From: Pseudanabaena cinerea FACHB-1277
Lineage (GTDB): Bacteria; Cyanobacteriota; Cyanobacteriia; Pseudanabaenales; Pseudanabaenaceae
Length of the DNA: 57,004 bases
Direction: 5' to 3'
Assembly: GCF_014696345.1 (NCBI RefSeq)
Contig: NZ_JACJPY010000019.1
Coordinates: forward strand, 1-57,004
Below, in pieces: positions 15,873 through 52,158 of the stretch. The notes under the pieces were generated by a model that saw only the letters and a program-made list of their open reading frames with translations, was not told the DNA's origin and did no database searches. The first letter of the stretch is position 1. Every line of letters begins with the position of its first letter. Position numbers and translations under genes: made by a program.

Positions 15873-16271
15873 TTGAATGGGGCTTTATTAGATAAAATTC
15901 GTTTACCTGTAAGCATTTTTCCAGTCTCAATGATTGCGGCGGCGGAATTGCAAGATTATCGATTTGTGCCTGTCAAGGGGCTATCTTCAGGTATGGTGGC
16001 AAGATTAGGCTTTGCGATCGCCACGGATATTCAACCAGAAATATTAATTCTTGATGAGGTATTATCAGTGGGGGACGAAAGCTTTAGGCATAAGTGTCAA
16101 CGCCGTATTGATCAATTCTGGGATTCCCACGTCACAATTTTAGTGGTATCTCATTCCATGGATTTTATTCAAAGCTCCTGTGATCAGGCAATTTGGCTCA
16201 GTAAAGGCAATCTTAAATTAGCAGGCAACTCAAAGGAAGTTGTAAAATCCTATTTAGAAAGTGTTACTTGA
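15873..16271 (+). pseudogene. Wzt-type ABC transporter ATPase, C-terminal remnant
   Basis: The frame keeps the ABC signature (KGLSSGMVARLGFAIATDIQ), Walker B (EILILDEVLSVGD) and H-loop (ILVVSHSMDFIQ) of a polysaccharide-export ATPase and ends normally. The Walker A half is missing: similarity starts near residue 29 of the frame (ELQDYRFVPVKGLSSG), preceded by unrelated sequence. It cannot bind ATP productively. It lacks the extra cargo-binding domain of the intact Wzt at 20551. It looks like debris of an earlier export cluster at this locus. Confidence 0.8.
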
Positions 16272-16283
16272 GGCTAGTCATTC

Positions 16284-17036
16284 ATGTATCAACCAATTCA
16301 TCCGCGATCGCCCCTTGAGACAATGCCCACGATGTACGATTTACCCAGCGAGTTGGTAGGAGAGTCTGGTTTGCCCGATGAATTTCATTGTATCCAAGCA
16401 GATTTACTCACCGAGACTTGTAAACCTGTTGGCTATTTGCCAGAAGAAATTTTACTGGCAAGCGATCTCAATCTTTATTACGATCCTCGTCATACGCAAT
16501 GGTACAAGCGTCCCGACTGGTATATGGTTTTGGGCGTACCAAGGGCAAATCAACAGGAAGAATTAAGGCTAAGTTATTTAATTTGGCAAGAAGGGGTAAC
16601 GCCTTTTTTGATCGTGGAGTTATTGTCTCCTGGCACTGAAAATGATGACTTAGGGCAAAGGCTTAGAGAGATTAATCAGCCACCAACTAAGTGGGAGGTT
16701 TACGAGCGAATTTTACGAGTTCCTTACTATGTCGTCTACGATCGCTACGAAAATAATCTACGCGCTTTTAAAATTTCTGGTCTGCGTTATGAGGCGATCA
16801 AGATCGCTGAAAATCGCTTTTGGCTAAATGAGATTGATTTGGGTTTAGGGCTATGGCAAGGAGTTTATCAAGGCACTGAAGGGCTATGGCTTCGGTGGTA
16901 TGACCACAATGGCTGGATTCCAACTTCAGCAGAGAGGGCAGAGGCTGCAAGCCAAAGGGCAGAGGCTGCAAGCCAAAGGGCAGAAAAGTTGGCGGCTTAT
17001 TTGCGATCGCAAGGCATTGATCCTGATAATTTATAA
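16284..17036 (+). CDS. Uma2 family (DUF820) putative endonuclease, copy A
   Basis: A 250-aa member of the longer Uma2 subgroup with YYDPRHTQWYKRPDWYMVLG (predicted catalytic Asp), PFLIVELLSPGTENDDLG (Glu) and the ending AAYLRSQGIDPDNL. The C terminus repeats AEAASQR twice. It is nearly identical through residue ~150 to copy B at 17555-18292; both begin MYQPIHPRSPLETMPTMYDL. The two flank an aspartic protease gene, so the locus arose by tandem duplication. Molecular role unknown. Confidence 0.8.
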   Translation: MYQPIHPRSPLETMPTMYDLPSELVGESGLPDEFHCIQADLLTETCKPVGYLPEEILLASDLNLYYDPRHTQWYKRPDWYMVLGVPRANQQEELRLSYLIWQEGVTPFLIVELLSPGTENDDLGQRLREINQPPTKWEVYERILRVPYYVVYDRYENNLRAFKISGLRYEAIKIAENRFWLNEIDLGLGLWQGVYQGTEGLWLRWYDHNGWIPTSAERAEAASQRAEAASQRAEKLAAYLRSQGIDPDNL

Positions 17037-17554: not shown

Positions 17555-18292
17555 ATGTATCAGCCAATTCATCCGCGATCGCCCCTTGAGACGATGCCCA
17601 CGATGTACGATTTGCCCAGTGAGTTGGTAGGAGAGTCTGGTTTGCCTGACGAGTTTCATTGCATTCAAGCAGATTTACTGACTGAGACTTGTAAACCTGT
17701 GGGTTATTTGCCAGAAGAAATTTTACTGGCAAGCGATCTCAATCTTTATTACGACCCTAGACATACGCAGTGGTACAAGCGACCTGACTGGTACATGGTT
17801 TTGGGTGTGCCAAAAGCAAATCAACTAGAAGAGCTAAGGCTGAGTTATTTAATTTGGCAAGAGGGCGTTACGCCTTTTTTGATCGTGGAGTTATTGTCCC
17901 CTGGTACTGAGGATGAAGATTTAGGGCAGAGGTTGAGAGAAATTAATCAGCCACCAACTAAGTGGGAAGTCTATGAGCGCATTTTGCGAGTCCCTTACTA
18001 TGTTGTTTACGATCGCTACGAAAATAATCTGCGTGCCTTTGAAATTTCGGGTATGCGTTATAAGCCAATTGCGATCAATGAAAATCGATTCTGGCTAAAT
18101 GAGATTAATTTGGGTTTAGGGCTATGGCAAGGAGTTTATCAAGGCACTAAAGGGCTGTGGTTGCGTTGGTATGACCAAGCTGGTTGGATTTTAACTTCAG
18201 CAGAATGTGCTGAGGCTGAAAGGCAGAGGGCGGATAGGTTGGCGGCTTATTTGCGATCGCAGGGTATCGATCCTGATAATTTACCCATTTAA
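17555..18292 (+). CDS. Uma2 family (DUF820) putative endonuclease, copy B
   Basis: A 245-aa paralogue of the gene at 16284-17036, almost identical in the N-terminal 150 residues and diverging mainly in the C-terminal coiled tail, where the AEAASQR repeat is replaced by AECAEAERQRADRL. Catalytic candidates (RPDW Asp, VELLSPGTEDEDLG Glu) are kept. Retention of both copies intact suggests recent duplication or selection. Confidence 0.8.
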   Translation: MYQPIHPRSPLETMPTMYDLPSELVGESGLPDEFHCIQADLLTETCKPVGYLPEEILLASDLNLYYDPRHTQWYKRPDWYMVLGVPKANQLEELRLSYLIWQEGVTPFLIVELLSPGTEDEDLGQRLREINQPPTKWEVYERILRVPYYVVYDRYENNLRAFEISGMRYKPIAINENRFWLNEINLGLGLWQGVYQGTKGLWLRWYDQAGWILTSAECAEAERQRADRLAAYLRSQGIDPDNLPI

Positions 18293-19620: not shown

Positions 19621-20505
19621 TTGACAGAAAATGGTTGGAGTCATCAATTGTTGAGATCGATGCGCGTGGTTTTAGGCAAGAGTAAAAAACTAAAAAGGTT
19701 TGTTCCTGTTAGCAATCAGCAGTGGGCTAAGTTTGATCTACTCCGAACTTTAGTTTGGCGAGATTTGGAGGCACGTTATAAAGGTTCAGTTCTGGGAAAC
19801 TTATGGCCATTGGTTAACCAATTGTCCCAGTTATTGATTTATACCTACGTCTTCGCGATCGTGCTTAAGGTGAAGATCAGTTTGCAGGGTGTACCAGACA
19901 ATAATTTTACTTTTGGGCTATGGCTATTTGCAGGACTGCTGCCTTGGATTTCATTTACAGGTGGACTGACGCAGGCTTCTAATTCAGTCATTGTTCAGCC
20001 GAACTTAGTCAAAAAAGTAGTATTTCCCCTAGCCTTGTTGCCACTTGTACCAGTCTTATCGACATTTATTGAAAGTGCTTTTGGGCTAATAGTGTTAATC
20101 TTTTTTGTAGCTTTAACTACCCATACTTTGCATATTACTTTAGCGCTGCTACCGTTGGTTTGGTTCACACAGTTGCTGTTAACGACGGGCTTAGGTTATC
20201 TCACCGCAGGCTTAACAGTTTTTTTGCGTGATATCCCACAAACTCTCGGATTGATTTTAAATATTTGGTTTTATATGACACCGATTATTTATCCTGCCTC
20301 AGCAATCCCTGAGACTTTTCGCAGTTGGATATTTTGGCTAAACCCAATAGCCTCCATCTCTGCTATATATCGAGATATCATCCTAGTTGGTGAAATAAAA
20401 CATAGTGCTGAGTGGTGTGTAGCCACTTTAGTTTCTGCACTTATAATGTGGTTTGGATTATCTGTATATCAACGCCTACGACCGTCATTTGCTGATGTTT
20501 TATAG
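19621..20505 (+). CDS. ABC-2 type polysaccharide export permease (Wzm/TagG-like)
   Basis: A 294-aa inner-membrane permease with about six helices. LVWRDLEARYKGSVLGNLWP is the conserved N-terminal amphipathic segment of Wzm/TagG permeases, and FYMTPIIYPASAIPE precedes the last helices, as in the family. It should form the channel for an undecaprenyl-linked glycan together with the ATPase encoded 45 bp downstream. The best in-frame start is TTG 19621; ATG 19660 would shorten the N terminus by 13 residues. Confidence 0.9.
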   Translation: MTENGWSHQLLRSMRVVLGKSKKLKRFVPVSNQQWAKFDLLRTLVWRDLEARYKGSVLGNLWPLVNQLSQLLIYTYVFAIVLKVKISLQGVPDNNFTFGLWLFAGLLPWISFTGGLTQASNSVIVQPNLVKKVVFPLALLPLVPVLSTFIESAFGLIVLIFFVALTTHTLHITLALLPLVWFTQLLLTTGLGYLTAGLTVFLRDIPQTLGLILNIWFYMTPIIYPASAIPETFRSWIFWLNPIASISAIYRDIILVGEIKHSAEWCVATLVSALIMWFGLSVYQRLRPSFADVL

Positions 20506-20550
20506 GTGTTTAGGTTTGATATATGTATTTTTAAATTTTATGAGACAGAT

Positions 20551-21885
20551 ATGGAAGAACAAATAGCAATCACACTAAATAATGTCTCAAAATGCTTTAA
20601 GCGCTATGCAAAACCTGCTGATAGATTGAAAGAGATTTTGCTGCCAAACAAAGATTATTCAGAAAGATTTTGGGCTTTACAAGATATTAGTCTGGAAATC
20701 CATAAAGGACAAACTATAGGGATCATAGGGCGCAATGGTTCAGGGAAGAGTACATTGTTGCAAATAATTGCTGGAACATTGACGGCAACAACTGGTAATG
20801 TAAATGTCAATGGAAGAGTATCCGCTTTATTAGAATTAGGAAGTGGGTTTAATCCAGACTTTACTGGGCGACAAAATGTATTTTTTAATGCTCGTTTATT
20901 AGGTCTAAGTCAACAAGAGATTGAAAATAAGTTTGATGAAATTGTGGGATTCGCAGATATTGGAGATTTTATCGATCAACCAGTCAAAACTTATTCTAGT
21001 GGAATGTTTGTTCGCTTGGCGTTTGCAGTTGCGGTGAATGTCGAGCCTGAGATTCTAATTATAGATGAGGCTTTGGCTGTTGGGGATATATATTTTCAGC
21101 AAAAATGTTTTGACAAATTGGCTTATCTCCGAGAAAAGCAAACAACTCTTTTATTCGTATCCCATGATATGAATGCAGTTCATAGATTATGCGATCGCGC
21201 CATTCTGTTGGACTCAGGAAGAGTATCTTTATGGTCAGAGGCTAGACAAGTTATTGATTTATATGAAGTTAATTTGATTAAACACATTACTCAGCTATCT
21301 AAGATTGAATCAATGGAGCAATCTGATAATTCAAATAGTGGGTTCACTTCAAATGCAGTATCACAAGATCAAGATATAGATGCTGAGATAGTTGGATCTA
21401 AGTCGAAATCTTTTGATTCGGGAAAGGCTAAAGTAGTGTTTGCCAAACTACTGAATATTAGCGATCAGCAAGTTAGAGTCATAATCAGTGAGCAATTAAT
21501 TAAATTACAGATCGGCATCTTATTTTTACAATCGTTTGACGACCCGTTAATCGGATTTCAAATGCGTGATCGCACTGGATTAATGATTTTTCAAACCAAT
21601 ACTTTTATGATGAATAAGGTTATAGGATCAGTAAGTAAAAACACCTTGGTTGAAGTTATTTTTGAATTTAAGCTCCCCTTATTTGAGGGAGAATATACAA
21701 TTACAGTTGGTGCAGCTAATAAAGGCAAAGGGCAATGGAGTTTTGAAGAAGGGCTACTTCAAGTTTATGATTCATGTCTTTTAAAGGTCTCAAAAAACCA
21801 AGAATCAATAATCTGGTTCGGCTTGGTGAATCTCTCTCCATCTGTTCGCATACAAAAATATGACAATGAATTATTAAAAAGATGA
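20551..21885 (+). CDS. ABC polysaccharide exporter ATPase with C-terminal cargo-binding domain (Wzt-like)
   Basis: A 444-aa protein. The nucleotide-binding domain (residues ~5-250) has Walker A IGIIGRNGSGKST, signature TYSSGMFVRLAFAVAV, Walker B EILIIDEALAVGD and switch LLFVSHDM. After a linker (~255-300) a beta-rich domain (~305-440: KVVFAKLLNISDQQVRVIIS, GFQMRDRTGLMIFQTNTF) matches the Wzt C-terminal carbohydrate-binding module. In E. coli O8/O9a-type systems this module recognises the modified non-reducing end of the finished glycan before export. I chose ATG 20551; a 15-residue upstream extension has no similarity. It pairs with the permease upstream. Confidence 0.92.
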   Translation: MEEQIAITLNNVSKCFKRYAKPADRLKEILLPNKDYSERFWALQDISLEIHKGQTIGIIGRNGSGKSTLLQIIAGTLTATTGNVNVNGRVSALLELGSGFNPDFTGRQNVFFNARLLGLSQQEIENKFDEIVGFADIGDFIDQPVKTYSSGMFVRLAFAVAVNVEPEILIIDEALAVGDIYFQQKCFDKLAYLREKQTTLLFVSHDMNAVHRLCDRAILLDSGRVSLWSEARQVIDLYEVNLIKHITQLSKIESMEQSDNSNSGFTSNAVSQDQDIDAEIVGSKSKSFDSGKAKVVFAKLLNISDQQVRVIISEQLIKLQIGILFLQSFDDPLIGFQMRDRTGLMIFQTNTFMMNKVIGSVSKNTLVEVIFEFKLPLFEGEYTITVGAANKGKGQWSFEEGLLQVYDSCLLKVSKNQESIIWFGLVNLSPSVRIQKYDNELLKR

Positions 21886-22168
21886 CTTATTCTTTTATAA
21901 TTGCGTTTAAGTTACTGCAATATCAAAAATAGTTTTCGATTTTTAAGTCTCAAAAAAATTAGAATAATCTTGATCTTACTAAATGTCATTTTAAGCTTAG
22001 GTAAACTGGATGGAATTAAGGGGCAAGCGAATAAATAAAGTACCTTTTCGGATTTTAGAGAATTGGTTGGGCGGCTTACTCCACCAATTCTGGTTTTATA
22101 TCTGATGCTTTATTAAATCGCACAGCCCTAAACATCTTCAATTCGTTAGTGATTATCTTTAAAAAATA

Positions 22169-22876
22169 ATGTTACAGACTGATCAACTCATACAGCAAGT
22201 TCATGACTACACTTTATGTAGTCCAAGAAAATTAACTAATCTCACAAGAATTTGTCAATATCTTAATCAGTCCAAAATTGAGGGTGATTTTGTCGAATGT
22301 GGTACTGCTAAAGGTGGATCTGCGGCGGTAATCTCCAAATTCTTAAATCAACAGAGACATCTTTGGCTCTATGACAGTTATGCAGGTATGCCTAAAACAA
22401 CTGAAAAAGATGGAGAAGAAGCCAAAAAATGGATTGGTAAATGTGTCGCTTCGGTTGAAGATGTTAGAGAAGTGATGGATCTAGTCTCAACCAATAGCAA
22501 TGAATACACAATTAAGAAAGGTTGGTTTGATCAAACTTTTTTAGAACCTCTGCCAAAAAAAATTGCACTTTTACATTGTGACGCAGATTGGTACGAATCA
22601 GTTTCCCTAGTACTAGAAACTTTCTATCCATTGATTCCAGATGGTGGTTGCATTGTTTTAGATGATTTTGGCTATTGGGAAGGTTGCAGGGAAGCATTTT
22701 ATGATTTTTGTTTTAAGAATAATGAAAAACCACTTTTAGAAAGAATTGAACTCGATCAAACTTATTGGGTTAAAGGCAAGTCTCATAATCGGCCACAAAC
22801 CGTCTTGACAGCAGGAATTATAAAAAGCCCTATTGAGCGGTTTCTCGAAGAAGAGTTTCAGCAGCAATACATCTAA
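22169..22876 (+). CDS. TylF/MycF-type O-methyltransferase
   Basis: A 235-aa SAM-dependent methyltransferase. EGDFVECGTAKGGSAAVISK is motif I of the TylF/macrocin O-methyltransferase family. LLHCDADWYESVSLVLETFY and CIVLDDFGYWEGCREA contain the metal-binding aspartates of this Mg-dependent family. These enzymes methylate sugar hydroxyls. In an export cluster the likely target is a glycan residue (inference). The 283 bp upstream hold no gene. Confidence 0.85.
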   Translation: MLQTDQLIQQVHDYTLCSPRKLTNLTRICQYLNQSKIEGDFVECGTAKGGSAAVISKFLNQQRHLWLYDSYAGMPKTTEKDGEEAKKWIGKCVASVEDVREVMDLVSTNSNEYTIKKGWFDQTFLEPLPKKIALLHCDADWYESVSLVLETFYPLIPDGGCIVLDDFGYWEGCREAFYDFCFKNNEKPLLERIELDQTYWVKGKSHNRPQTVLTAGIIKSPIERFLEEEFQQQYI

Positions 22877-22961
22877 ATTTCATCCTTGGAACTTGTTGAC
22901 ATATCGCGTTATTCTAGAAATAGAATAATTATCAAAAAGCTAGCATTATCAACCTAAGTTA

Positions 22962-23957
22962 ATGAATAAAAACCTAATTCCAAATAAAGGTCTCAATCTA
23001 TCAACACTAGGAATGTTGACATTACAAGAAAGACAGTATCTTTATGAATATACTAAACAAGAATATTCTGGCAATGGAGAAATTGTAGATCTAGGGTGTT
23101 GGCTCGGCTCATCTACCATCCCGCTAGCCATGGGCTTGGTAGAAAACGCAAATCCACAAACCCAAAGCAGAAAAATTCATGCTTATGATATTTTTATCTG
23201 GGAAGCTTGGATGGATCAACTCAGTTGTGTAATTGGCACCCAGTTAGAGGGCAAATTTCAACCTGGCGATAGTTTTTTTGAAGAATGTCAGAGACAAACG
23301 TCTTCTTGGGAAAAGCAAATATGCTATCACCCTGGTGATTTAACTCAATTAGGATGGCAAGGTGGTGAAATTGAGTTTTTATTTATTGATGCCATGAAAA
23401 GTTGGGAGTTAGCCAATAGCATCATTCATGATTTTTTCCCCTCACTAATCCCAGGTCGATCAACTATTGTTCATCAAGACTTTGTACATTACTACACCTA
23501 CTGGATACATTTAACTATGTATCGATTCAGAGAGTATTTTGATGTTGTTTACGATATTCCTTACTCTTCTAGCTTGGTTTATAAGTATAAGAAAGCAATA
23601 CCAGAAGAGCTACTCAAAAATGTCTATTCGGTCGATGATTTTTCCGTAGATGAAATCAACTTGGCTCTGAACCATTCCAGCAATCTTGTTTCTAAAGGAA
23701 AACGACCAATTGTTTTGGCAGGCAAAATCAAAGCATTTTCAGAATCTAAAAACGAACAACAATCCGACCTTGTTGACAAAGGACTAGCAGATCTGTATAC
23801 TATGCAAGCAGAGTTAAACTATCTTTACACTTCATTATCTCATCCAATACAGTGTGTTGAAGATGTTTCCGTTGAGTCTCCTGTAACTGAAAAACACTTC
23901 ATAGGTGCCTTGGTTCAGAAAAGCAAGAAATTAATTGGGTTTTTAACAAAAAGATAG
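22962..23957 (+). CDS. SAM methyltransferase-like protein, tandem family copy 1
   Basis: A 331-aa protein. GEIVDLGCWLGSSTIPLAMG resembles SAM-binding motif I. Family-specific blocks follow: HAYDIFIWEAWMDQL, IEFLFIDAMKSWELANSII and STIVHQDFVHYYTYWIHLTM. The acidic residues in IDAMKSW and the HQDF motif could form a metal or substrate site as in TylF-like enzymes (inference). The C-terminal ~90 residues are variable. Two further genes of the same family follow directly; copy 2 is separated by only 2 bp. The target is probably a sugar in the exported glycan, but no biochemical assignment is possible. Confidence 0.7.
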   Translation: MNKNLIPNKGLNLSTLGMLTLQERQYLYEYTKQEYSGNGEIVDLGCWLGSSTIPLAMGLVENANPQTQSRKIHAYDIFIWEAWMDQLSCVIGTQLEGKFQPGDSFFEECQRQTSSWEKQICYHPGDLTQLGWQGGEIEFLFIDAMKSWELANSIIHDFFPSLIPGRSTIVHQDFVHYYTYWIHLTMYRFREYFDVVYDIPYSSSLVYKYKKAIPEELLKNVYSVDDFSVDEINLALNHSSNLVSKGKRPIVLAGKIKAFSESKNEQQSDLVDKGLADLYTMQAELNYLYTSLSHPIQCVEDVSVESPVTEKHFIGALVQKSKKLIGFLTKR

Positions 23958-23959
23958 CC

Positions 23960-24898
23960 ATGAATTTAGTCGTCCCAAGTATGCTAACCTCTGCCGAGAA
24001 AGAATATATCTATAGGTATGCTAAGAATGAATTCAAGGCTGTGGGAGAAATTGTTGACCTAGGTTGTTGGCTAGGCTCGTCTACAGTCCCGTTAGCCGCA
24101 GGAATTCGAGAAAATTCGGATCCGAAAACCAAGAATCATTTCATTCATGCTTATGATATTTTTATCTGGGAAGCATGGATGGATCAACTTAGTTGTGTTG
24201 TGGGGACATCATTAGAAGGAAAATTTAAACCAGGGGATAGCTTTTACGAAGAATGCCTAACTCAAACCTATCCTTGGCGCAAGCAAATTAAGTTTAATCA
24301 AGTTGATTTGACCAAAACAACATGGGAAAGTGGGGCTATTGAAATGTTATTTATTGATGCGATGAAAAGCTGGGAATTAGCTAACAGCATCATTCAAAAT
24401 TTCTTCCCTTCTCTAATTCCAGGTCACTCCATCGTTGTTCATCAAGATTTCACTCACTACTACACCTATTGGATACATTTGACGATGTATAGATTTAGGG
24501 AATATTTTGATGTAGTTTATGATATTCCATACTCTGCAAGTCTGGTCTTCAAGTATAAAAAGCAAATTCCCCAAGAAGAACTTCAAAAATTTTATTCTGT
24601 GGAATCTTTTGATGTCGATGAAATTAATGCAGCTTTTGACTACTCTGCAAGCTTAGTTTCTCCAGAAAAACGCCCAGTTATTTTGGCAGGTAAAATCAAG
24701 GCATTCACTGATCTTGGTACCGATTGGCAACCATATAGAATCGATGCTGCATTAGCAGATTTACATGAAGAATTATCAAAATTTCAAGGTCTGATCCTAG
24801 TTAAACAAGAAGGATGGGCTTATTATCGCAAGAAAGTCTTATTAAAGTTAAAACAGATTGTCAAGCATACGATCTGGAAGTCTCGTAGCGATAGCTAA
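23960..24898 (+). CDS. SAM methyltransferase-like protein, tandem family copy 2
   Basis: A 312-aa paralogue of the preceding gene with the same blocks: GEIVDLGCWLGSSTVPLAAG, HAYDIFIWEAWMDQLSCVVG, IEMLFIDAMKSWELANSII and VVHQDFTHYYTYWIHLTMYR. It begins 2 bp after the copy 1 stop, so the two are surely cotranscribed. Its short C-terminal tail (LHEELSKFQGLILVKQEGWA) differs from copy 1. The core is much more conserved than the tails, which points to selection on the catalytic or binding core. Confidence 0.7.
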   Translation: MNLVVPSMLTSAEKEYIYRYAKNEFKAVGEIVDLGCWLGSSTVPLAAGIRENSDPKTKNHFIHAYDIFIWEAWMDQLSCVVGTSLEGKFKPGDSFYEECLTQTYPWRKQIKFNQVDLTKTTWESGAIEMLFIDAMKSWELANSIIQNFFPSLIPGHSIVVHQDFTHYYTYWIHLTMYRFREYFDVVYDIPYSASLVFKYKKQIPQEELQKFYSVESFDVDEINAAFDYSASLVSPEKRPVILAGKIKAFTDLGTDWQPYRIDAALADLHEELSKFQGLILVKQEGWAYYRKKVLLKLKQIVKHTIWKSRSDS

Positions 24899-24972
24899 GG
24901 CTAAATATACAAATTGAATTTGCCGTCTGATTGATGAGATTTTTGAAAGCCGACACTGAAAACTAGAACTAT

Positions 24973-26913
24973 ATGACTGAAATGGATACATCAATTTTAG
25001 GAATGCTGTCAATGGAAGAAAGACAGTATCTCTATAAGTACGCACAAAATGAGTATTGTGCAATTGGTGAAATAGTCGATCTCGGGTGTTGGCTTGGTAG
25101 TTCAGTCGTTTCTTTAGTAACCGGCTTACAAAAAAACCTCAATTTACCCGCTAGGGATAAGATTATTCATGCCTACGATCTGTTCGTTTGGGAATCATGG
25201 ATGGATCAATTTGTTGATGGTACTCCCTTAAGTGGACGGTATCAATCTGGGGACAGTTTTTTGCCAGAGTGTTCAAAACTGATTCAGCCTTGGGAAAAAC
25301 AAATTAAGCTATACCCTGGAGATTTAAGTCAGATAGGTTGGCATGGCGATCCTATAGAATTTCTATTTGTTGATGCAATGAAGTCTTGGTCTCTAGCCAA
25401 TAGCATCTTACGAAATTTCATCCCTTCTCTGATTCCTAACCACTCAGTTATCGTCCATCAGGACTTTGCTCACTTTGGTACTTATTGGATCCACCTAATA
25501 ATGTATCGCTTACGGTCTTATTTTGAGCCGATTTATGACATTCCAAATTCTTGGGGTTTGGTATTTAAATATAAACAAGCAATTCCTAATTCACTATTAA
25601 TGGAGTCCTATGCCCTAGCTAGTTTTGATCGAGCTGAAATTGATGCTGCTTTTGAATACTCAATAGCGATGGTTGCTTCCCAGAAACGATCTCAAATTGT
25701 TGGAGCAAAGGTCATAGCTTTGCTGGAGTTAGGAGATCTTGAGCAAGCAGAACTAACGCTAGATCGAGCAATCTCGGATGGATTTTCTCAAGCAGATATT
25801 CATCCTCCACTAGGTTTAGGTTTTCCTTCACTAATCTTTAAATATATTCCAGTTTCAAACACAAATCATAGTTCTTATAAAGAATTACTTAACAGTCAAA
25901 GCACTCCTATGGATATTACAGTATCCCAGAAAAAACAGATACATCAAAACAATTCAGATGACACGATATATACTGGGGAAAGGCATATGGAGGATCAGTT
26001 AGGCGTTGGATTAAACCTAAGTCATATCGATCATATGGTTAGGTATGCATTTACATCTAATTTTGTAAAAGGTAAAAGAGTCCTAGACATCACTTGTGGG
26101 AGTGGCTATGGTTCTCAGTTTATGGCAGTGCAAGGAGCAGAGAAAGTCGTTGGAGTTGATATTGATGTTAACTCAATTAAACATGCTCGTAAGTATTATC
26201 AACACCCTAATGTTAGTTATATTGAGTCAGATGCTCACCATGTCTCTGAACTTGAAGATGAGTCATTTGACGTTATTATATCTTTTGAAACAATTGAGCA
26301 TTTGCAATTTCCAAGAGATTTTTTGTTAGAATTGCGTCGTCTGTTAAAACCAGATGGGCAACTTATTATTTCCTGTCCGAATGATTATCGAAGTTCTCCT
26401 TGGATTAGTCAATATCATATACATAAGTTCCGTTTTACAGAATTCCGAGACATTATCTTAAACGTCTTTGGAGAAGCATCTTTCCTTTTACAATACAACA
26501 CTATTACAAGCAGCTTGATCAGACCTACAGGCATTGAAGAACATAATTCACGATTTCAAAACTACCTCTCTCCCTTACCTGAAGGATTTTGGGGCAATCA
26601 ATATTTAGATAGTATACTTACGGTTGATAATGCCCTTGGTTATTTAGCAGTAGTGGGTATTGCAACAGATCAAATTGTTCATCAATCAAGTATATCGCAC
26701 TCAGCTTTTCAGGAAGTTATTGACACCTTGAAGTATCAGATGGAGGAAGCTCATAAAAAATCTTATGAATTGCAGCAGGTTTCCTCTGAATTGCAGAAAA
26801 AATGTTCTGAATTAAACCAATTACAGAGTATAATTAACAATGAAACGAGCTGTGGCAGGCTTTCTCATATCAAGATAGCTCTTAGACACTTAAAAAAAGC
26901 TGTTTCACTCTAG
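24973..26913 (+). CDS. Two-domain methyltransferase: tandem family copy 3 fused to a UbiE-like methyltransferase
   Basis: A 646-aa protein. Residues ~1-290 are the third copy of the family in the two preceding genes (GEIVDLGCWLGSSVVSLVTG, IEFLFVDAMKSWSLANSILR, IVHQDFAHFGTYWIHLIMYR). Residues ~330-560 are a separate class I methyltransferase: GKRVLDITCGSGYGSQFMAV (motif I), KVVGVDIDVNSIKHARKYYQ (motif II) and DVIISFETIEHLQFPRDFLL. The last ~75 residues (LQQVSSELQKKCSELNQLQS) form a coiled coil that could mediate oligomerisation. The fusion suggests that two modifications are made by one protein or on neighbouring positions of one substrate (inference). Confidence 0.75.
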   Translation: MTEMDTSILGMLSMEERQYLYKYAQNEYCAIGEIVDLGCWLGSSVVSLVTGLQKNLNLPARDKIIHAYDLFVWESWMDQFVDGTPLSGRYQSGDSFLPECSKLIQPWEKQIKLYPGDLSQIGWHGDPIEFLFVDAMKSWSLANSILRNFIPSLIPNHSVIVHQDFAHFGTYWIHLIMYRLRSYFEPIYDIPNSWGLVFKYKQAIPNSLLMESYALASFDRAEIDAAFEYSIAMVASQKRSQIVGAKVIALLELGDLEQAELTLDRAISDGFSQADIHPPLGLGFPSLIFKYIPVSNTNHSSYKELLNSQSTPMDITVSQKKQIHQNNSDDTIYTGERHMEDQLGVGLNLSHIDHMVRYAFTSNFVKGKRVLDITCGSGYGSQFMAVQGAEKVVGVDIDVNSIKHARKYYQHPNVSYIESDAHHVSELEDESFDVIISFETIEHLQFPRDFLLELRRLLKPDGQLIISCPNDYRSSPWISQYHIHKFRFTEFRDIILNVFGEASFLLQYNTITSSLIRPTGIEEHNSRFQNYLSPLPEGFWGNQYLDSILTVDNALGYLAVVGIATDQIVHQSSISHSAFQEVIDTLKYQMEEAHKKSYELQQVSSELQKKCSELNQLQSIINNETSCGRLSHIKIALRHLKKAVSL

Positions 26914-27007
26914 TTATTTACTATTGATGTGCAAAAATCAGCAATTTAATTGCGTGTTTTGTCCAAATTATAGTCGTAGCCACAAAATCTTAGGATAAAA
27001 TCAAGAG

Positions 27008-27817
27008 ATGGGTATTTTTTCTAGTCCACTTGTTTGGCCAAGCTTAGAACAAGAATTGGCTCCTTATCGTAAATACTGTCGTGGGATAGTCTTGAATGCA
27101 GGCTCTGGTTCAAGGTCAATTCAATTGGGACAAAGAGATTTAAACATTGACATAGTTCCTGCTAATCAACCTGATGTTTTGGCTGACTTGCATACAATAC
27201 CCTTGCGTGATTTATCTGTTGATACTATCGTAAGCATTGCTGTACTTGAGCATACCCGATATCCATGGATAGTAGCCCAAGAATTTTATCGAGTGCTTCG
27301 TAATGGTGGTTATGGAATTATTGCGGTTCCTTTTCTCCAACCTCAACATGCCTGTCCCCACGATTATGTGAGATTTACGGAGCAGGGTTTAGTTGAAGTG
27401 ATGAAATATGTCGGCTTTGAAGTTGTTGAAACTGGACATGTTCATCACTTTGGTCAAACAATGGCATGGTTACTCTGGGAATATCTCAAAGGAAGTAATA
27501 CAAAAAAATGGATGCTTCCTTTGTGGGGTATTCTAATAAACCAATTATCTAAGGGAAATTTGTTCAAGGGTGATAGCCCAAACACCCATAATACTCACTA
27601 TGTAGTCGTTCAAAAGCTAGGTGATTCGCCAAACTTTAACGAACTTGGAGCAGATGTAATTAGCGACTTAGATTCAAAAACTTGGTTTTATCCTTTGCTT
27701 GCATGTCCTTCTACCAAAAAGCCTCTTAAATTTGTGGATAACAAATTAATTTCTCAAGATGATCGATTTGTCTATAATGTTGAAAATAATATTCCTTGTC
27801 TGCTTCCAAAAAATTAG
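27008..27817 (+). CDS. Class I methyltransferase with C-terminal Trm112/UPF0434-like domain
   Basis: A 269-aa protein. Residues ~25-170 are a Methyltransf_11-type fold: RGIVLNAGSGSRSIQLG (motif I) and VDTIVSIAVLEHTRYPWIVA (motif IV and after), with PHDYVRFTEQGLVEVMKYVG typical of glycan-cluster methyltransferases. Residues ~225-269 (FYPLLACPSTKKPLKFVDNK, then NNIPCLLP) resemble Trm112/UPF0434, small domains that elsewhere activate methyltransferases in trans. Only one clear Cys remains at the CPxT site and one near the end, so zinc binding is doubtful. Here the putative activator is fused in cis. Confidence 0.75.
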   Translation: MGIFSSPLVWPSLEQELAPYRKYCRGIVLNAGSGSRSIQLGQRDLNIDIVPANQPDVLADLHTIPLRDLSVDTIVSIAVLEHTRYPWIVAQEFYRVLRNGGYGIIAVPFLQPQHACPHDYVRFTEQGLVEVMKYVGFEVVETGHVHHFGQTMAWLLWEYLKGSNTKKWMLPLWGILINQLSKGNLFKGDSPNTHNTHYVVVQKLGDSPNFNELGADVISDLDSKTWFYPLLACPSTKKPLKFVDNKLISQDDRFVYNVENNIPCLLPKN

Positions 27818-27838
27818 TAATCTTTTAAACTTATAACT

Positions 27839-30130
27839 ATGATAGAAAGTATTGGTCAGGAAAGCATTCAAGTTGATTTTAAGACGCACATAGCAAAAAC
27901 ATTTCCTAGCAAAGTAGATAAAATTGCACTATTAGTTTCTTCGGAGTACGAAGGATACTATAAAAACGGTGGTATTGGCACATACTATAGGGCGCTTAGT
28001 GAGCAATTGTTTGAAGATGGATGGTACGTAATTTTACTTCTGTGTGCGACTGAAGAACACTTTCAAGGCAAATCAAAAGTTCCATTTCTTAATCAAGTTT
28101 TTTCAGTGACGGAGTGTGAGGAAATCCTGAGTTTACAGCCAATCCACCGAGCAATTTTAGATGACGCAAGATCAAGTTATTACGAATACCAGAGCTTTAA
28201 TATTTTGTTTTTTACTCAGGCACTTGTAGCTTGCTGTGCAAACGCAAAAGTCTATATTGAGTTTCCTGAGATGTGTGGTTTTGGTTACAGAACTATACAA
28301 GCAAAGCGTGTCGGTTTACTCCCAAAATGTGTTACTTCAGTAACTTTACACAGTGGTCATGAATGGGTATATGAAGCTAATGAAAGGTTTAACGTCACAT
28401 ATGCACACAATTTTTGGCAGATTTGTCATTACGAACAAAATTCCTTTGAAAACGCTGATTTAAGCTTCCACCCTTCTAACTTTATTCTCTCTAAGGTGAA
28501 AAGCTATGGTTGGAATGTTAGCGCCGCTATTAGGTTGCCATATTTTATCCCATTAATTAATCTTTCTTGTATCGAAACACCTTTAATTGAATCCTTAAAA
28601 AATCGAATAGCAGAAAATAAAATTCCGATCATATTCTTTGCTAGGTTAGAAGAAAGGAAAGGATTATGTACGTTTATACAAGCTATTAAAAGATTAGAAT
28701 CGTCTTCAGCTAATTCTTGCCACTTTATTTTTGTTGGTAAAATTGTGCAACTGAATTCACATCATCTACGACATTTAGATAGTGACCAGTATATTCGTCA
28801 GGAATTAACTAATACTTACAGTTATGACATATGTGATGGTCTTTTCAGTGAAGAAGCACTGAATTTAATTAATAGTTTCAATAGAGCTATTGTATGCCTA
28901 ACAAGTCCTCAAGATAATTTCCCGAATAGCGCGTTGGAAGTAGGGCAATTACCAGTTAGTATTGTGGCTGCTGATACTGGGGGATTTAGAGAAACGCTAG
29001 GTTTGTTGAATCGCGACTCTTGCGTGTATTGGTTTCAACCTCAAAGTGTACAATCACTGACTCAAGTTCTTTCTAAATCAATTGAGAATTATAATGAGCT
29101 TCCAAATGTTCCCAAGATAGATTTATTGCAGGATACAAATGTCAGTCTTTTGCAAAAAAGGATAGAATACATAGATAATAAGTTTGAATTTGGACGTAAG
29201 GAAACTCAAACCTATCCCTTGGTTATCGTAACTATTGTTGTTAAGGATGGAGATTTAAATTTACTAGATTGTTTGGGTAGTCTTTATGCACAGGTTTATC
29301 AAAATTTCCAAGTTATAGTATTGGATTTGGCAGTGGAAAATGAAGAAACTCAAAAAGTCTTAAGAAATTCGCAAACTAAGTTTCCAAGTATTAAGGTGGT
29401 TCACTGTAGCCATGCTTCAGACTTAACTAGTTTACAAGAATGGATAGATTTAATTCAGCAATCTTCTTGGCTGCTTTTCTGGAATGCTAATAATCTTTCA
29501 TCTGTAAATATGCTAGATACTTTAGTAAATTCGGCTATAAGTGCTGATGCACTAGTATCATTATGTCCAGCATTAGTAAACTCACAAAATTTACTAGTCC
29601 AAAATATGAGATTGGGATATGTATCTCAGTTATTGACTTCAGGATTGAGTAACGTCAATATGTTGCTCAGTACTAAGCTAATGTTTGAACATATGAATTG
29701 GCCGATAGGTTTTGAAGTAGGTAGTTTGGCAAAGTATTTACTAGCTACTGTAATTACTACTGGAGAAAAAATTGCCTATTTCCCCTATCCGCTTTATCTA
29801 GATATTAGTAAGAATACTAATTTAGACAAAGAAGTTTTACTGAAGGATTCTTTTCAGATGCGTCAGTATATAGCTTCTATTGAGCCATTGGCTTGGAATG
29901 AACGTCAAATTTATATGTTACTATCGGGATTACAGCAAATTGAATTTCAATCTGGTTTTGTTCAATCATTTAAGAACTTGGCTGGTTACGATATCAAGAC
30001 TCTTTTTAATGCTCTTGCTTGGAAAGTCATTAGAATAATACAGAGTCGAATTTCTAAATATGAAAACATGAAACTTATATCATTTGTAAGAATTCGTTTA
30101 ATTAAATTCTTCTCTGGCAGTAAAATCTGA
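27839..30130 (+). CDS. Two-domain glycosyltransferase: GT4-like plus degenerate GT2-like
   Basis: A 763-aa protein. The N-terminal ~440 residues are GT-B fold, GT4-like: YKNGGIGTYYRALSEQLFED is the glycine-rich acceptor loop, IPIIFFARLEERKGLCTFIQ starts the donor domain, and SPQDNFPNSALEVGQLPVSI contains the E-x7-E-like donor site. Residues ~460-700 resemble a GT2 domain (PLVIVTIVVKDGDLNLLDCL, ...QNFQVIVLDLAVENEE), but the position of the metal-binding D-x-D reads WLLFWNANNLSSVNM with no aspartate. The second domain may therefore be inactive and serve binding or scaffolding. Probably assembles the exported glycan. Confidence 0.75.
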   Translation: MIESIGQESIQVDFKTHIAKTFPSKVDKIALLVSSEYEGYYKNGGIGTYYRALSEQLFEDGWYVILLLCATEEHFQGKSKVPFLNQVFSVTECEEILSLQPIHRAILDDARSSYYEYQSFNILFFTQALVACCANAKVYIEFPEMCGFGYRTIQAKRVGLLPKCVTSVTLHSGHEWVYEANERFNVTYAHNFWQICHYEQNSFENADLSFHPSNFILSKVKSYGWNVSAAIRLPYFIPLINLSCIETPLIESLKNRIAENKIPIIFFARLEERKGLCTFIQAIKRLESSSANSCHFIFVGKIVQLNSHHLRHLDSDQYIRQELTNTYSYDICDGLFSEEALNLINSFNRAIVCLTSPQDNFPNSALEVGQLPVSIVAADTGGFRETLGLLNRDSCVYWFQPQSVQSLTQVLSKSIENYNELPNVPKIDLLQDTNVSLLQKRIEYIDNKFEFGRKETQTYPLVIVTIVVKDGDLNLLDCLGSLYAQVYQNFQVIVLDLAVENEETQKVLRNSQTKFPSIKVVHCSHASDLTSLQEWIDLIQQSSWLLFWNANNLSSVNMLDTLVNSAISADALVSLCPALVNSQNLLVQNMRLGYVSQLLTSGLSNVNMLLSTKLMFEHMNWPIGFEVGSLAKYLLATVITTGEKIAYFPYPLYLDISKNTNLDKEVLLKDSFQMRQYIASIEPLAWNERQIYMLLSGLQQIEFQSGFVQSFKNLAGYDIKTLFNALAWKVIRIIQSRISKYENMKLISFVRIRLIKFFSGSKI

Positions 30131-30317
30131 ATTTATTTTTATTATGAAATATGAAATGGTTTTAGTTGTTTTATTAGTTTTGAAATTTTAATAAGTTTTT
30201 TAATACAATACTAAGCGTATTTATACTCTTACAAATTCTTGCAGATTAATGTTAATTAGCATTTAAGTAGCCTTTTGAAAATTCAAATTAATATAAAGAA
30301 TCAGGTGAACTATAAAA

Positions 30318-31469
30318 GTGATAAACGAAAGTAAACAAACTCTCCGAGTACTACAGATTATTGATGATGCAAGCATTGGTGGCGGTCAAATTCATGTTTT
30401 GTTGTTATCTAAGTATTTACTAAGTATGGATATTAAAGTGACGATCGCCACTGCATCGGTTGGGTGGTTAGTTGAACAGGCAAATATTTTAGATATACCT
30501 GTCTGCCCGATTGATATATCGAACAAAATTACATGGCGTGCTTTTGAAAGTATTCATCGTCTATTAAAGATTCAAGATTTTGATGTAATTCATACTCATG
30601 GCGGCACAGCAGGATTTTGGGGTAGATTAGTGGCTAAAATATTGCAGCATAAATCTAAAATTATCCATTCGTATCATGGGTTGCATTACCTCAACATTTT
30701 TCAGAATAGGCAAATGAGACAGAGATTAAAGAATATACTGTTTAAAACAATAGACCAATTAACTTTAAATGTTACTGATCATATAATTTGTGTATGCCTT
30801 TCTGATTATGAGAAAGCGATCACTGCCAATGTAGCATCTCCATCAAAAACATCAATTGTTAATTACGGCATTGATATAGTTAAATTTTCGCAGCCGATTA
30901 ACAAAGAAATATCTCGGAAAATATTTGATATTGCCCCAACCGAATTTATATTCGGTAATGTGGGCAGACTCCATGAACAAAAAGGACATCAATATCTGTT
31001 AAAAGCCTTTGCCAAAGTCAGCGATCGCGCCAGATTGCTAATTATTGGTGATGGCGACCTCAAAGATGAATTAATCAAACTTGCTGATGATTTACAAATT
31101 AGCGATCGCATTACCTTTTTAGGTGCGCGTTCTGATGTTCACGAATTTTTATCAGCGATCGATGTTTTTGTAATGCCCTCACTTTGGGAAGGTCAACCGA
31201 TTGCCTTGTTAGAAGCTTTAGCAATGGGTAAGCCCTGTATTGTTAGCGATGTTGATGGGATTTCTGAAGTTATTACCAACAATGTTAATGGTTATCTCGT
31301 CAAGCCCAAAGATATCGCAGGACTAACTCAAGCAATGAACCAATCGATCGACAATCCAGAGGTTCTTAAGCAACTTGCCAATTCTGGGGTTAATACAATT
31401 ACCGAAAAGTTTTTAGCTCAAAATATGGCAAAGGCGATCGCCGATATTTACTTGACTCAGATAATTTAG
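30318..31469 (+). CDS. GT4 family glycosyltransferase
   Basis: A 383-aa retaining GT-B glycosyltransferase. The N-terminal domain has IDDASIGGGQIHVLLLSKYL (acceptor side). The C-terminal domain has FGNVGRLHEQKGHQYLLKAF, then VMPSLWEGQPIALLEALAMG with the two glutamates that contact the nucleotide sugar. Start is GTG 30318, preceded by AGGTGAAC. The 187 bp upstream are AT-rich and may contain a promoter. HIP1 density rises again within this gene, marking the right border of the AT-rich cluster. Confidence 0.88.
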   Translation: MINESKQTLRVLQIIDDASIGGGQIHVLLLSKYLLSMDIKVTIATASVGWLVEQANILDIPVCPIDISNKITWRAFESIHRLLKIQDFDVIHTHGGTAGFWGRLVAKILQHKSKIIHSYHGLHYLNIFQNRQMRQRLKNILFKTIDQLTLNVTDHIICVCLSDYEKAITANVASPSKTSIVNYGIDIVKFSQPINKEISRKIFDIAPTEFIFGNVGRLHEQKGHQYLLKAFAKVSDRARLLIIGDGDLKDELIKLADDLQISDRITFLGARSDVHEFLSAIDVFVMPSLWEGQPIALLEALAMGKPCIVSDVDGISEVITNNVNGYLVKPKDIAGLTQAMNQSIDNPEVLKQLANSGVNTITEKFLAQNMAKAIADIYLTQII

Positions 31470-31499
31470 AAAAGCAGTAATGACAATATCGTAGGTATT

Positions 31500-32012
31500 T
31501 TGGTAATAAATATACTAATAGCAAAGTGTCACGCCAGAACCTATCAAACCTATGGTTGTGCAAATAACCACAACCGCATTATTCGCAATTTTAGTAGATT
31601 GCTAGAATCGCCAGCCTATGAAGTTTTTATTAGTGACTTACGCTTGTGGATTCCTGCTTACAACGAATATACCTATCCAGATATTTTATTAATTCAAGGC
31701 GAGCCAAGTTTCCAAGAAAACCGTACAGATACGGTGATTAATCCCAGTATCATTATCGAAGTTTTATCTAAATCCACTAGCAACCGCGATCGCGGTGACA
31801 GATTTGCATTTTACCGTTCGCTTAACACATTTCAAGAATATATTTTAGTTGATCAATATCGAGTTCACATCGAACAGTTTCGCAAAAATGACGATGGTAA
31901 CTGGTTACTGAGAGAATCTGATGATCAAAATGGAATTCTGAGTTTAGCAAATGGGCTTTACCAGATTGCTCACCGTGACATCTACGCAAAAGTCAAATTT
32001 GATCAGGTATAA
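31500..32012 (+). pseudogene. Uma2 family gene, 5'-truncated
   Basis: 170 residues that join the Uma2 family at NNHNRIIRNFSRLLESPAYE and continue through TYPDILLIQGEP (catalytic Asp), NPSIIIEVLSKSTSNRDRGD (Glu) and FQEYILVDQYRVHIEQF to a normal end. The usual ~40-50 N-terminal residues are missing; the preceding codons match nothing and the only start available is a TTG. Probably a remnant, though the predicted catalytic residues remain. Confidence 0.65.
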
Positions 32013-49494: not shown

Positions 49495-50562
49495 ATGACC
49501 ATTGCAATGGGCAGGTCGCAGCAAGTCGAAAGAGGATGGTTCGACATCCTTGACGACTGGCTAAAGCGCGACAGATTTGTATTCATTGGCTGGAGCGGCT
49601 TACTACTATTCCCCACAGCATTTCTATCAATTGGTGGCTGGTTCACAGGCATCACTTTCGTATCTTCTTGGTACACCCATGGTCTAGCATCTAGCTTCCT
49701 TGAAGGCTGCAACATCTTGACCGTAGCCGTATCCTCCCCTGCATTGAGCGTTGGTCATTCCTTGCTCTTGCTTTGGGGACCTGAAGCACAGGGCGACTTT
49801 ACACGCTGGTGTCAAATCGGCGGATTGTGGACATTCCTCGCTCTACATGGCGCTTTCGCTTTGATCGGCTTCATGCTACGTCAATTTGAAATCGCTCGTC
49901 TAGTCGGTATCCGTCCTTACAATGCGATCGCTTTCTCTGGTCCTATCGCCGTATTCGTATCAGTATTTTTGATGTACCCCTTGGGTCAATCTGGTTGGTT
50001 CTTCGGACCTACCTTTGGCGTAGCTGGTATCTTCCGTTTCATCTTGTTCTTGCAAGGTTTCCACAACTGGACTCTGAACCCCTTCCACATGATGGGCGTA
50101 GCAGGTATCCTCGGTGGCGCACTGCTCTGTGCAATTCACGGAGCAACCGTTGAAAACACCTTGTTTGAAGATGGCGAGAATGGTAGCTCCAACACCTTCA
50201 AAGCATTCAACCCCACCCAAGCTGAAGAAACCTACTCTATGGTTACAGCAAACCGTTTCTGGAGCCAAATCTTCGGTATTGCTTTCTCCAACAAGCGTTG
50301 GTTGCACTTCTTCATGCTATTTGTACCCGTAACTGGACTATGGTTCAGCAGCGTTGGTATCGTTGGTTTAGCATTGAACTTGCGTGCCTATGACTTCGTA
50401 TCTCAAGAAGTCCGTGCCGCAGAAGATCCTGAATTTGAAACCTTCTACACCAAGAACTTGCTCTTAAATGAAGGTATTCGTGCATGGATGGCTCCTCAAG
50501 ACCAACCAGCCGAAAGATTCATCTTCCCTGAGGAAGTACTTCCTCGCGGTAACGCATTGTAA
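49495..50562 (+). CDS. psbD: Photosystem II D2 protein
   Basis: A 355-aa thylakoid protein that with D1 forms the photosystem II reaction centre. [20 protein letters not shown] is the N terminus. [20 protein letters not shown] carries the redox tyrosine, [20 protein letters not shown] the chlorophyll- and iron-binding histidines, and [20 protein letters not shown] the conserved C-terminal part. It is two or three residues longer than usual and differs at several normally very conserved places, such as [16 protein letters not shown], where most D2 proteins have STPADSLGHSLLFLWG, and [14 protein letters not shown]. It does not overlap psbC. Confidence 0.97.
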
Positions 50563-50766
50563 TTTCTCGCAAGAATTTTTGGGGCGTAACCGTCACAATA
50601 GATTTGCCAAATTTAGCTATTAGATATCAGTACGGATAGACTAGTTTTTAGATTATGATGGATTTCATCAAACTTCTAGATGTTAGCAGCTACTAAACTG
50701 GTATCTGATAGCTAAAAAATTATTTGCACTATAAACCTATAAACAGTTTTCTGGAGATCCCTTCTC

Positions 50767-52158
50767 GTGACAACGACCATTAACTTAAATAATTTGGGAG
50801 TGGGTGGACGTACACAGGATACATCAGGCTTTGCTTGGTGGTCTGGTAATGCACGTCTCATCAACCTTTCTGGCAAACTGCTGGGCGCTCACGTTGCTCA
50901 CGCTGGTTTGATCGTATTCTGGGCTGGCGCAATGACTTTGTTTGAAGTTGCCCACTTTGTGCCTGAAAAGCCAATGTACGAACAGGGCTTTATTTTGCTA
51001 CCTCACTTGGCGACCCAAGGTTGGGGCGTTGGTGCTGGTGGTGAAGTTGTAGATATCTTCCCCTACTTTGTAGTTGGCGTACTTCACCTCATTTCTTCAG
51101 CAGTGCTTGGGTTTGGTGGTATCTACCACGCTCTCCGTGGTCCTGAAGTTCTTGAAAATTACTCCTCTTTCTTCGGATACGACTGGAAAGACAAGAATCA
51201 AATGACCAATATTATTGGTTATCACTTGATCCTGTTGGGTATTGGCGCTCTATTGCTAGTATTCAAGGCGATGTTCTTCGGTGGGCTATACGACACATGG
51301 GCTCCTGGTGGCGGCGATGTGCGTGTGATTACTAACCCAACCCTCAATCCAGTAGTAATTTTCGGTTACTTACTGAATTCGCCCTTTGGTGGTGAAGGCA
51401 ACATCGTTGGTGTTGATAATCTTGAAGATGTAGTCGGTGGACATATCTGGATTGGCTTGATCTGTATCGGTGGCGGCATTTGGCATATTCTTACCAAGCC
51501 TTTTGGTTGGGCAAGACGCGCCCTTGTTTGGTCTGGTGAAGCATATCTTTCCTACAGCCTCGGCGCATTGAGCTTCATGGCTTTCATCGCTACTTGCTTT
51601 GTCTGGTACAACAATACTGTTTACCCTAGTGAGTTCTTTGGTCCTACTGCTGCCGAAGCATCTCAGTCTCAAGCGTTCACTTATCTTGTACGTGACCAAA
51701 AGTTGGGTGCAAATATTGCCACCTCTCAAGGACCAACTGGTCTAGGTAAGTACCTAATGCGTTCTCCTTCGGGCGAAATCATTTTTGGTGGTGAAACCAT
51801 GCGTTTCTGGGATTTCCGTGGACCTTGGTTAGAGCCTCTCCGTGGTCCTAGCGGATTGGACATTGACAAACTAAAAAATGATGTTCAGCCTTGGCAAGTA
51901 CGTCGTGCTGCTGAGTATATGACCCATGCACCTTTGGGATCTCTAAACTCCGTTGGTGGTGTTATTACCGAAATCAACGCAGTTAACTTTGTATCGCCTC
52001 GCTCTTGGCTGTCTACCTCTCACTTTGTCCTATCCTTCATGTTCTTGGTTGGTCACTTGTGGCATGCTGGTCGTGCGCGTGCGGCTGTTGCTGGCTTTGA
52101 AAAGGGCATTGATCGTAAGACTGAAGCTGTACTATCTATGCCTGATCTAGATAAGTAA
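50767..52158 (+). CDS. psbC: Photosystem II CP43 chlorophyll protein
   Basis: A 463-aa inner antenna protein of photosystem II with six helices and a large lumenal loop. [20 protein letters not shown] binds chlorophyll. [20 protein letters not shown] precedes [10 protein letters not shown], with the Glu and Arg that contact the oxygen-evolving cluster. The start is GTG 50767 with GGAGATC upstream, the usual start codon for psbC. Unlike the common arrangement, where psbC begins inside psbD, 204 bp separate the genes here. A terminator lies 69 bp after the stop. Confidence 0.97.

Follow-up and report, generated by a model that had tools for sequence, protein, structure and literature searches.

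The 57,004-nucleotide stretch of DNA analysed here, hereafter the window, belongs to contig NZ_JACJPY010000019.1 of the cyanobacterium Pseudanabaena cinerea FACHB-1277 and carries three adjacent genes at 22962–26913, the products of which share a domain that we label F. The first two genes encode stand-alone F proteins, and in the third the F domain is joined to a second methyltransferase module, MT11, and a tail that is predicted to be helical:

22962–23957, plus strand: F1, stand-alone F-family methyltransferase of 331 amino acids (Methyltransf_24 E 0.0027, below cut-off)
23960–24898, plus strand: F2, stand-alone F-family methyltransferase of 312 amino acids, sister of F1 in the tree and the copy that was modelled
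24973–25779, plus strand: F3, the F domain at the N-terminus of a 646-amino-acid protein (open reading frame 24973–26913), recognised by shared blocks and tree
23388–23480 in F1, 24356–24448 in F2 and 25372–25464 in F3, plus strand: proposed catalytic stretch Asp143-x-x-Lys146 ... Gln172-Asp173 (F1 numbers), from the 39-sequence alignment
25945–26751, plus strand: MT11, second methyltransferase module joined to F3 (Methyltransf_11, Pfam E 9.6e-23)
26665–26913, plus strand: tail of the F3 protein, a long helix (residues 565–623) and a second helix (629–645) in the predicted model, coiled-coil-like by eye

As judged by BLASTP, F1 and F2 are 66.5% identical over 269 amino acids, F1 and F3 52.0% over 277 and F2 and F3 51.9% over 268, with E 8e-101 or lower for all three pairs. 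The intergenic gaps are 2 bases (F1/F2) and 74 bases (F2/F3), and the blocks VDLGCW-G-S, AYD-F-WE-WMDQ, DAMKSW and HQDF-H are each found in F1, F2 and F3. The first-pass annotation, made from the sequence alone, had described three neighbouring genes with common blocks, and this description is borne out, at identities of 52–67% and with all blocks in all three. A profile search of the assembly returned three matches, all at this locus, and no further F copy.

F is a class I S-adenosylmethionine (SAM) methyltransferase at the edge of Methyltransf_24 (PF13578): it has the Rossmann-like fold and the glycine-rich motif I, with an acidic residue after strand 2. Methyltransf_24 is the sole Pfam family at E<0.1 for the F domains of F1, F2 and F3, but the three score 19.0, 25.8 and 21.4 bits, respectively, all below the curated cut-off of 26.3 bits; two relatives exceed it (L038, 37.5 bits; L043, 27.3 bits), and 18 of 25 F-family members match at E<=0.01. 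NCBIfam gave no match for F1 or F2, and for the F3 protein the best 25 of 65 families all fall on the second domain, for which the Pfam Methyltransf_11 match spans residues 371–466. A profile search of the PDB with F found no relative at E<=1, and the single-sequence search returned two chance matches only (E 0.22). In PHROGs, F1 and F2 have weak matches, the best of them to a DNA methyltransferase family (E 0.018), and those of the F3 protein lie mostly on its second methyltransferase. Thus, Pfam, NCBIfam, PHROGs and the PDB profile search did not place the blocks in a characterised enzyme family. A viral origin of F was considered and set aside: one scan of viral contigs gave 12 stretches that fit a pattern, none of them confirmed, and a tblastn search of phages with F2 found nothing.

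The model of F2 (mean predicted local distance difference test, pLDDT, of 90) was used for a structure search, in which matches within 1 Z of each other were treated as tied. The best match is MeT1, the 1-O-methyltransferase of the mycobacterial methylmannose polysaccharide (6g80, 6g7d; Z 18.7, root-mean-square deviation 3.1 Å, 190 residues aligned, 18% identity), accompanied by SpnH (Z 18.0, 2.3 Å, 168 aligned), MycF (Z 17.8, 2.4 Å, 168 aligned) and NovP (Z 17.4, 2.5 Å, 179 aligned). These are followed by other cation-dependent O-methyltransferases, with the COMT entries at Z 15.6–16.1; all 1000 aligned chains have Z >= 5, and most of the 50 matches listed are named methyltransferases. MeT1, SpnH, MycF and NovP are all sugar O-methyltransferases, in part by entry title. 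The likeness to MeT1 has its limits: sequence searches of the PDB with F did not find it. An excerpt of PMC9883506 describes MeT1 as acting on oligosaccharide precursors of the polysaccharide and as assayed with Mg2+, and the four-gene cluster in that excerpt is described without an exporter.

The TylF family (PF05711), to which NovP, SpnH and MycF belong, resembles F in fold (Z 16.9–18.0), in its sugar acceptors and in a remote profile match, and a true TylF gene adjoins F1 in the window. At the level of single sequences the two are distinct, F1, F2 and F3 having no Pfam match to TylF at E<=1. When F was aligned by hhalign with nine TylF sequences the probability was 81% (E 1.2e-5), with HQDF placed on the DDF of TylF; the lone window TylF gave 0.6%, and an alignment of the other Methyltransf_24 neighbours from L004, L013 and L016, which are poorly alike, gave 76%. 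The comparison with nine sequences points to TylF as a remote sequence relative of F. Taken as a family, F is a branch of the TylF/MeT1/COMT-like fold that has been little described and for which neither Pfam nor NCBIfam has a dedicated model; a literature search found no description of it, which does not prove absence from print. The earlier proposal that the genes encode a methyltransferase-like, sugar-modifying family is supported, sugar being the most likely substrate.

Conservation was assessed in an alignment of 39 sequences, three from the window and 36 from outside loci. Lys146, Asp173 and glycines 45, 49 and 58 (F1 numbers) are invariant in 39/39, Asp143 is present in 38/39 and Gln172 in 36/39, the other three having Asn. 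E23, I137 and E138 are near-invariant (38/39 each), while D43 is kept in 34/39 and D76 in 35/39, with E in the other 5 and 4. Eight further members with both blocks have the D in 8/8, the K in 7/8 (one R) and the QD in 8/8; L069 (DADH, second block missing) and the partial L062 were excluded from this set, and L059 carries an in-frame stop. The tryptophan-rich blocks stressed in the first-pass annotation are not supported as the hallmark of the family, since they vary in deeper members, whereas the residues invariant in the 39 do not: the AYD-F-WE-WM block is kept mainly among closer relatives, and most alphaproteobacterial members differ.

An excerpt of PMC3466255 assigns metal binding in COMT to Asp141, Asp169 and Asn170 and acceptance of the proton to Lys144; for ThnM1, a relative of MycE, an excerpt of PMC9275233 names Asp275, His278 and Asp304. 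Judging from the residue patterns, the D-x-x-K and (Q/N)-D of F look like the residues with which COMT binds its metal and takes up the proton, except that acid and amide have changed places (D-N in COMT versus (Q/N)-D in F), and the F site would bind a divalent metal; an acceptor other than that of COMT is expected. TylF differs from F in having D-x-D and D-D in place of D-x-x-K and Q-D. The Asp-to-Gln change could also signal that F methylates a carboxyl, phosphate or amine on a glycan (uronic acid, methylphosphate or aminosugar) rather than a hydroxyl, and methylphosphate ends some O antigens exported by ATP-binding cassette (ABC) transporters, as stated in an excerpt of PMC11231755. We consider such an acceptor decidedly improbable, since, among the nearest fold neighbours, those whose titles name a reaction are sugar O-methyltransferases and Pfam reported no kinase domain among the nine window proteins scanned.

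The three genes lie within a run of glycan genes, ordered wzm, wzt, tylF, F1, F2, F3-MT11, methyltransferase, GT4/GT2-like glycosyltransferase and GT4 glycosyltransferase, separated by 0 to 283 bases:

19621–20505, plus strand: Wzm-type ABC-2 permease (PF01061, E 3.3e-22)
20506–21885, plus strand: Wzt-type ATPase with C-terminal Wzt_C domain (PF14524, E 8.6e-21, 74.9 bits)
22169–22876, plus strand: TylF-family O-methyltransferase, relative of the NovP, SpnH and mycinamicin O-methyltransferases (E 8.3e-34)
27008–27817, plus strand: further methyltransferase (Methyltransf_11, E 1.2e-9) with a weak, sub-cut-off Trm112p-like match at its C-terminus
27839–30130, plus strand: glycosyltransferase with GT4 lobes and a weak GT2-like part (Pfam), relatives of which are fused to F elsewhere (fusion survey)
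30318–31469, plus strand: GT4 glycosyltransferase (PF00534, E 1.8e-44)

Gene clusters for ABC-exported glycans have this arrangement. The G+C content at 20001–32000 is 34–38%, as compared to 40–51% in the rest of the window. Upstream, the 132-amino-acid open reading frame at 15873–16271 resembles, by eye, the C-terminal portion of the ATPase domain of a Wzt-type protein and may be left over from a second exporter. The near-identical reading frames at 16284–17036 and 17555–18292, which start MYQPIHPRSPLETMP, have another reading frame between them and look Uma2-type by eye, suggest a recent local duplication. Farther downstream, the reading frames at 49495–52158 look photosystem II-like by eye, in keeping with a cyanobacterium.

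Parts of the same set recur in other genomes. L042 has the order wzm-wzt-tylF-F-MT11, F and MT11 being separate genes there, and L045 the order wzm-wzt-F-tylF-glycosyltransferase-MT11; sequence identity to these counterparts is 51–69% for wzm, wzt, TylF and MT11 of the window, the stand-alone MT11 genes of L042 and L045 being 54% and 51% identical to the module in the F3 protein, respectively (residues 325–593 aligned to L042). Of the 36 outside loci, 11 encode F fused to portions of a glycosyltransferase that is a relative of the one at 27839–30130 of the window: to both lobes in L005, L009, L038, L039, L040, L043, L044 and L047, and to just the N-terminal lobe in L006, L011 and L046. The fusion survey recovered F in 33/36 loci, longer overlapping reading frames having hidden it in some. 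At L046:7468-11710, L011:7227-10541 and L006:5479-8840 the N-terminal lobe stands alone or is fused to F or to another methyltransferase, and the C-terminal lobe is a separate gene. Methyltransferases may use an acceptor-binding lobe of this kind as a module.

In 8/37 genomes or records, or 7/36 without the window's own, a contig carries F and a Wzt_C domain no more than 12 kb apart: G000 (the window), G091, G185, G338, G389 (8.0 kb), G397, G401 and W01. Random placement would give 0.25 (Poisson p 3.5e-10, a value that ignores gene clustering). The Wzt_C of G401 scores 29.8 bits, just below the Pfam cut-off of 30.4, and is backed by a Wzt match (E 3e-66); F and Wzt_C are 25 kb apart on one contig in G116 and on different contigs in G399, which was not counted. 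F is thus often, not always, near an exporter, and the idea that family members always sit in export clusters is not supported. TylF is found within 12 kb of F in 3/37 (G000, G091 and G185), with a weak fourth case in G386. Among 30 neighbours chosen from 18 loci and scanned with Pfam there are 9 glycosyltransferases (one with a Stealth domain), 6 methyltransferases and one each of NeuB, sulfotransferase and sulfatase. Two distant F relatives also adjoin genes for sugar polymers, L049:9998-12199 a Stealth/GT8 protein and L051:10854-11927 NeuB.

Proximity to an exporter could reflect merely the clustering of sugar genes, in which case F would act on nucleotide sugars or small glycosylated metabolites instead of a growing glycan. 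Several of the fold neighbours do use small molecules (CalS11, by its title, TDP-rhamnose; SpnH and MycF, antibiotics), and AMP-binding genes lie near F in the plasmid relatives L038 and L040, accompanied in L040 by a gene for a carrier protein. Against this explanation stand the recurrence of the wzm-wzt-tylF-F-MT11 set and the fusions to glycosyltransferase lobes, and we regard it as unlikely.

The triplication that had been suggested for the three window genes is only partly borne out by the tree. While F1 and F2 are sisters (support 100/100), F3 groups with L042 (94/89), the lone F gene of another cyanobacterial genome with the same wzm-wzt-tylF set, and forcing F1, F2 and F3 into one clade costs 9.8 log units (p-AU 0.0395), a mild rejection. 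The likely path is that an older F beside MT11 became fused in the window and that a separate F lineage was duplicated. The family is scattered over Cyanobacteriota, Planctomycetota, Acidobacteriota, Bacteroidota, Verrucomicrobiota and Pseudomonadota. F matches were found in 11/386 cyanobacterial genomes (E<=1e-5), 6/246 in the phylum of L016 (Planctomycetota) and 6/247 in that of L010 (Acidobacteriota; both E<=1e-8), in screens that were limited to 6 or 10 scored candidates for each genome and could miss an extra copy. L051, a very long branch and a doubtful member, is counted both among the 36 loci and among the 11 cyanobacterial genomes. Three other genomes of the window's genus have no F match.

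In a search of the 37 genomes or records with a wider profile, three side-by-side copies appeared in the window's only; G386 has two clear copies, each on its own contig, plus a weak third match, G401 one plus a weak second, and the other 34 one match each. In G386, the genome of L004, the copies lie on contigs C214 and C115; the second clear F gene (E 5e-86) begins the other contig and has a weak TylF match directly behind it. The confinement of adjacent copies to the window's genome would fit one or more of them being inactive, either as redundant duplicates or as non-catalytic glycan-binding domains. This seems barely plausible to us, as the SAM motif and the D-x-x-K and Q-D residues are kept in all three and all frames are open.

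The third copy had been described as fused to another methyltransferase and a coiled coil. The former stands, and the latter amounts to a 59-residue helix predicted at 565–623 (block mean pLDDT 57–82), which looks coiled-coil-like when judged by eye. Among the MT11 proteins encoded close to F in L006, L015, L042 and L045, the C-terminal tail varies in length. In a test of tail amphipathicity, most shuffles were exceeded only in F1 (17/500 reached its value); for the other window proteins GT763, TylF and MT27 the counts were 279/500, 359/500 and 153/500. We do not claim a membrane anchor, because amphipathicity rose above most shuffles for F1 only. With WbdD-type terminators of ABC-exported O antigens (excerpt of PMC11231755; see also PMC3482155) the F3 protein shares a methyltransferase beside wzm and wzt, followed by a tail that may be a coiled coil, and the partner exporter has a Wzt_C domain, as in those systems. 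It differs from them in having two methyltransferase domains and no kinase, its tail and any role in termination being predicted.

Taken together, we favour a reading, to which we give a probability of roughly 0.7, in which F1–F3 are metal-dependent SAM sugar O-methyltransferases for an ABC-exported glycan. From family, fold, conserved residues and gene context we infer a metal, a base, a sugar substrate, capping and an order of action. SAM would be held on VDLGCWLG and the Asp of AYD, Asp143 and Gln172/Asp173 would hold a divalent metal that positions the sugar hydroxyl, and Lys146 would accept the hydroxyl proton as the methyl passes from SAM to the oxygen. The F enzymes would work in the cytoplasm on a glycan built by the neighbouring glycosyltransferases and exported by Wzm/Wzt; the F3 protein, with its second methyltransferase and coiled-coil-like tail, would probably methylate the growing end, and Wzt_C may read the methyl mark, as with O antigens capped by methylated sugars. 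By analogy, the F3-MT11-tail protein is a candidate chain terminator, because an Aquifex Wzt_C binds a methylated sugar, Klebsiella terminators carry a coiled-coil ruler and MT11 partners have tails. As excerpted, PMC9445017 reports that Wzt_C of Aquifex binds 3-O-methylmannose, not mannose, and that methylated sugars cap that O antigen. For the ABC systems of Klebsiella, an excerpt of PMC11231755 places the terminator in a protein that contains a coiled-coil ruler and mentions that one of these proteins has cyanobacterial orthologues; the cyanobacterial section of a review (PMC4515613) includes a lipopolysaccharide with a 3- or 4-O-methyl hexose.

Several observations weigh against this reading. 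The common fold shows no reaction, catechol, flavonoid and tRNA enzymes also having it; the metal site is mapped from sequence patterns and predicted secondary structure, and one acidic ligand of TylF and COMT is replaced by Gln in F. In 29/37 genomes or records there is no Wzt_C within 12 kb of F, many contigs being short. Among the 30 scanned neighbours 6 belong to other, unrelated families and 6 to no family at E<=1e-6, and L008, L010, L014 and L017 have no glycan gene among the neighbours scanned. Finally, the F3 protein, tail included, is modelled at low confidence (mean pLDDT 64), and tail amphipathicity is not above that of shuffles in F2 (132/500 reached it) or F3 (75/500).

A bolder version holds that F is a separate sugar O-methyltransferase family with an acid/amide-swapped metal site, that the F3 protein is a new kind of terminator, carrying two methyltransferase modules on a single coiled coil and making a doubly methylated cap read by Wzt_C, and that F1 and F2 set further methyl positions; this we consider doubtful. 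As a moderately interesting result, F is a real, little-described branch of known sugar O-methyltransferases, in which the active-site pattern is odd and the fusion suggestive, its reaction being predicted. If the reading of F1–F3 as sugar O-methyltransferases for an exported glycan is right, it would give a scattered family a testable role and tie O-methylation of cyanobacterial surface glycans to the cap-and-export logic of O antigens, and the swapped metal site would pose a direct question for mutagenesis.

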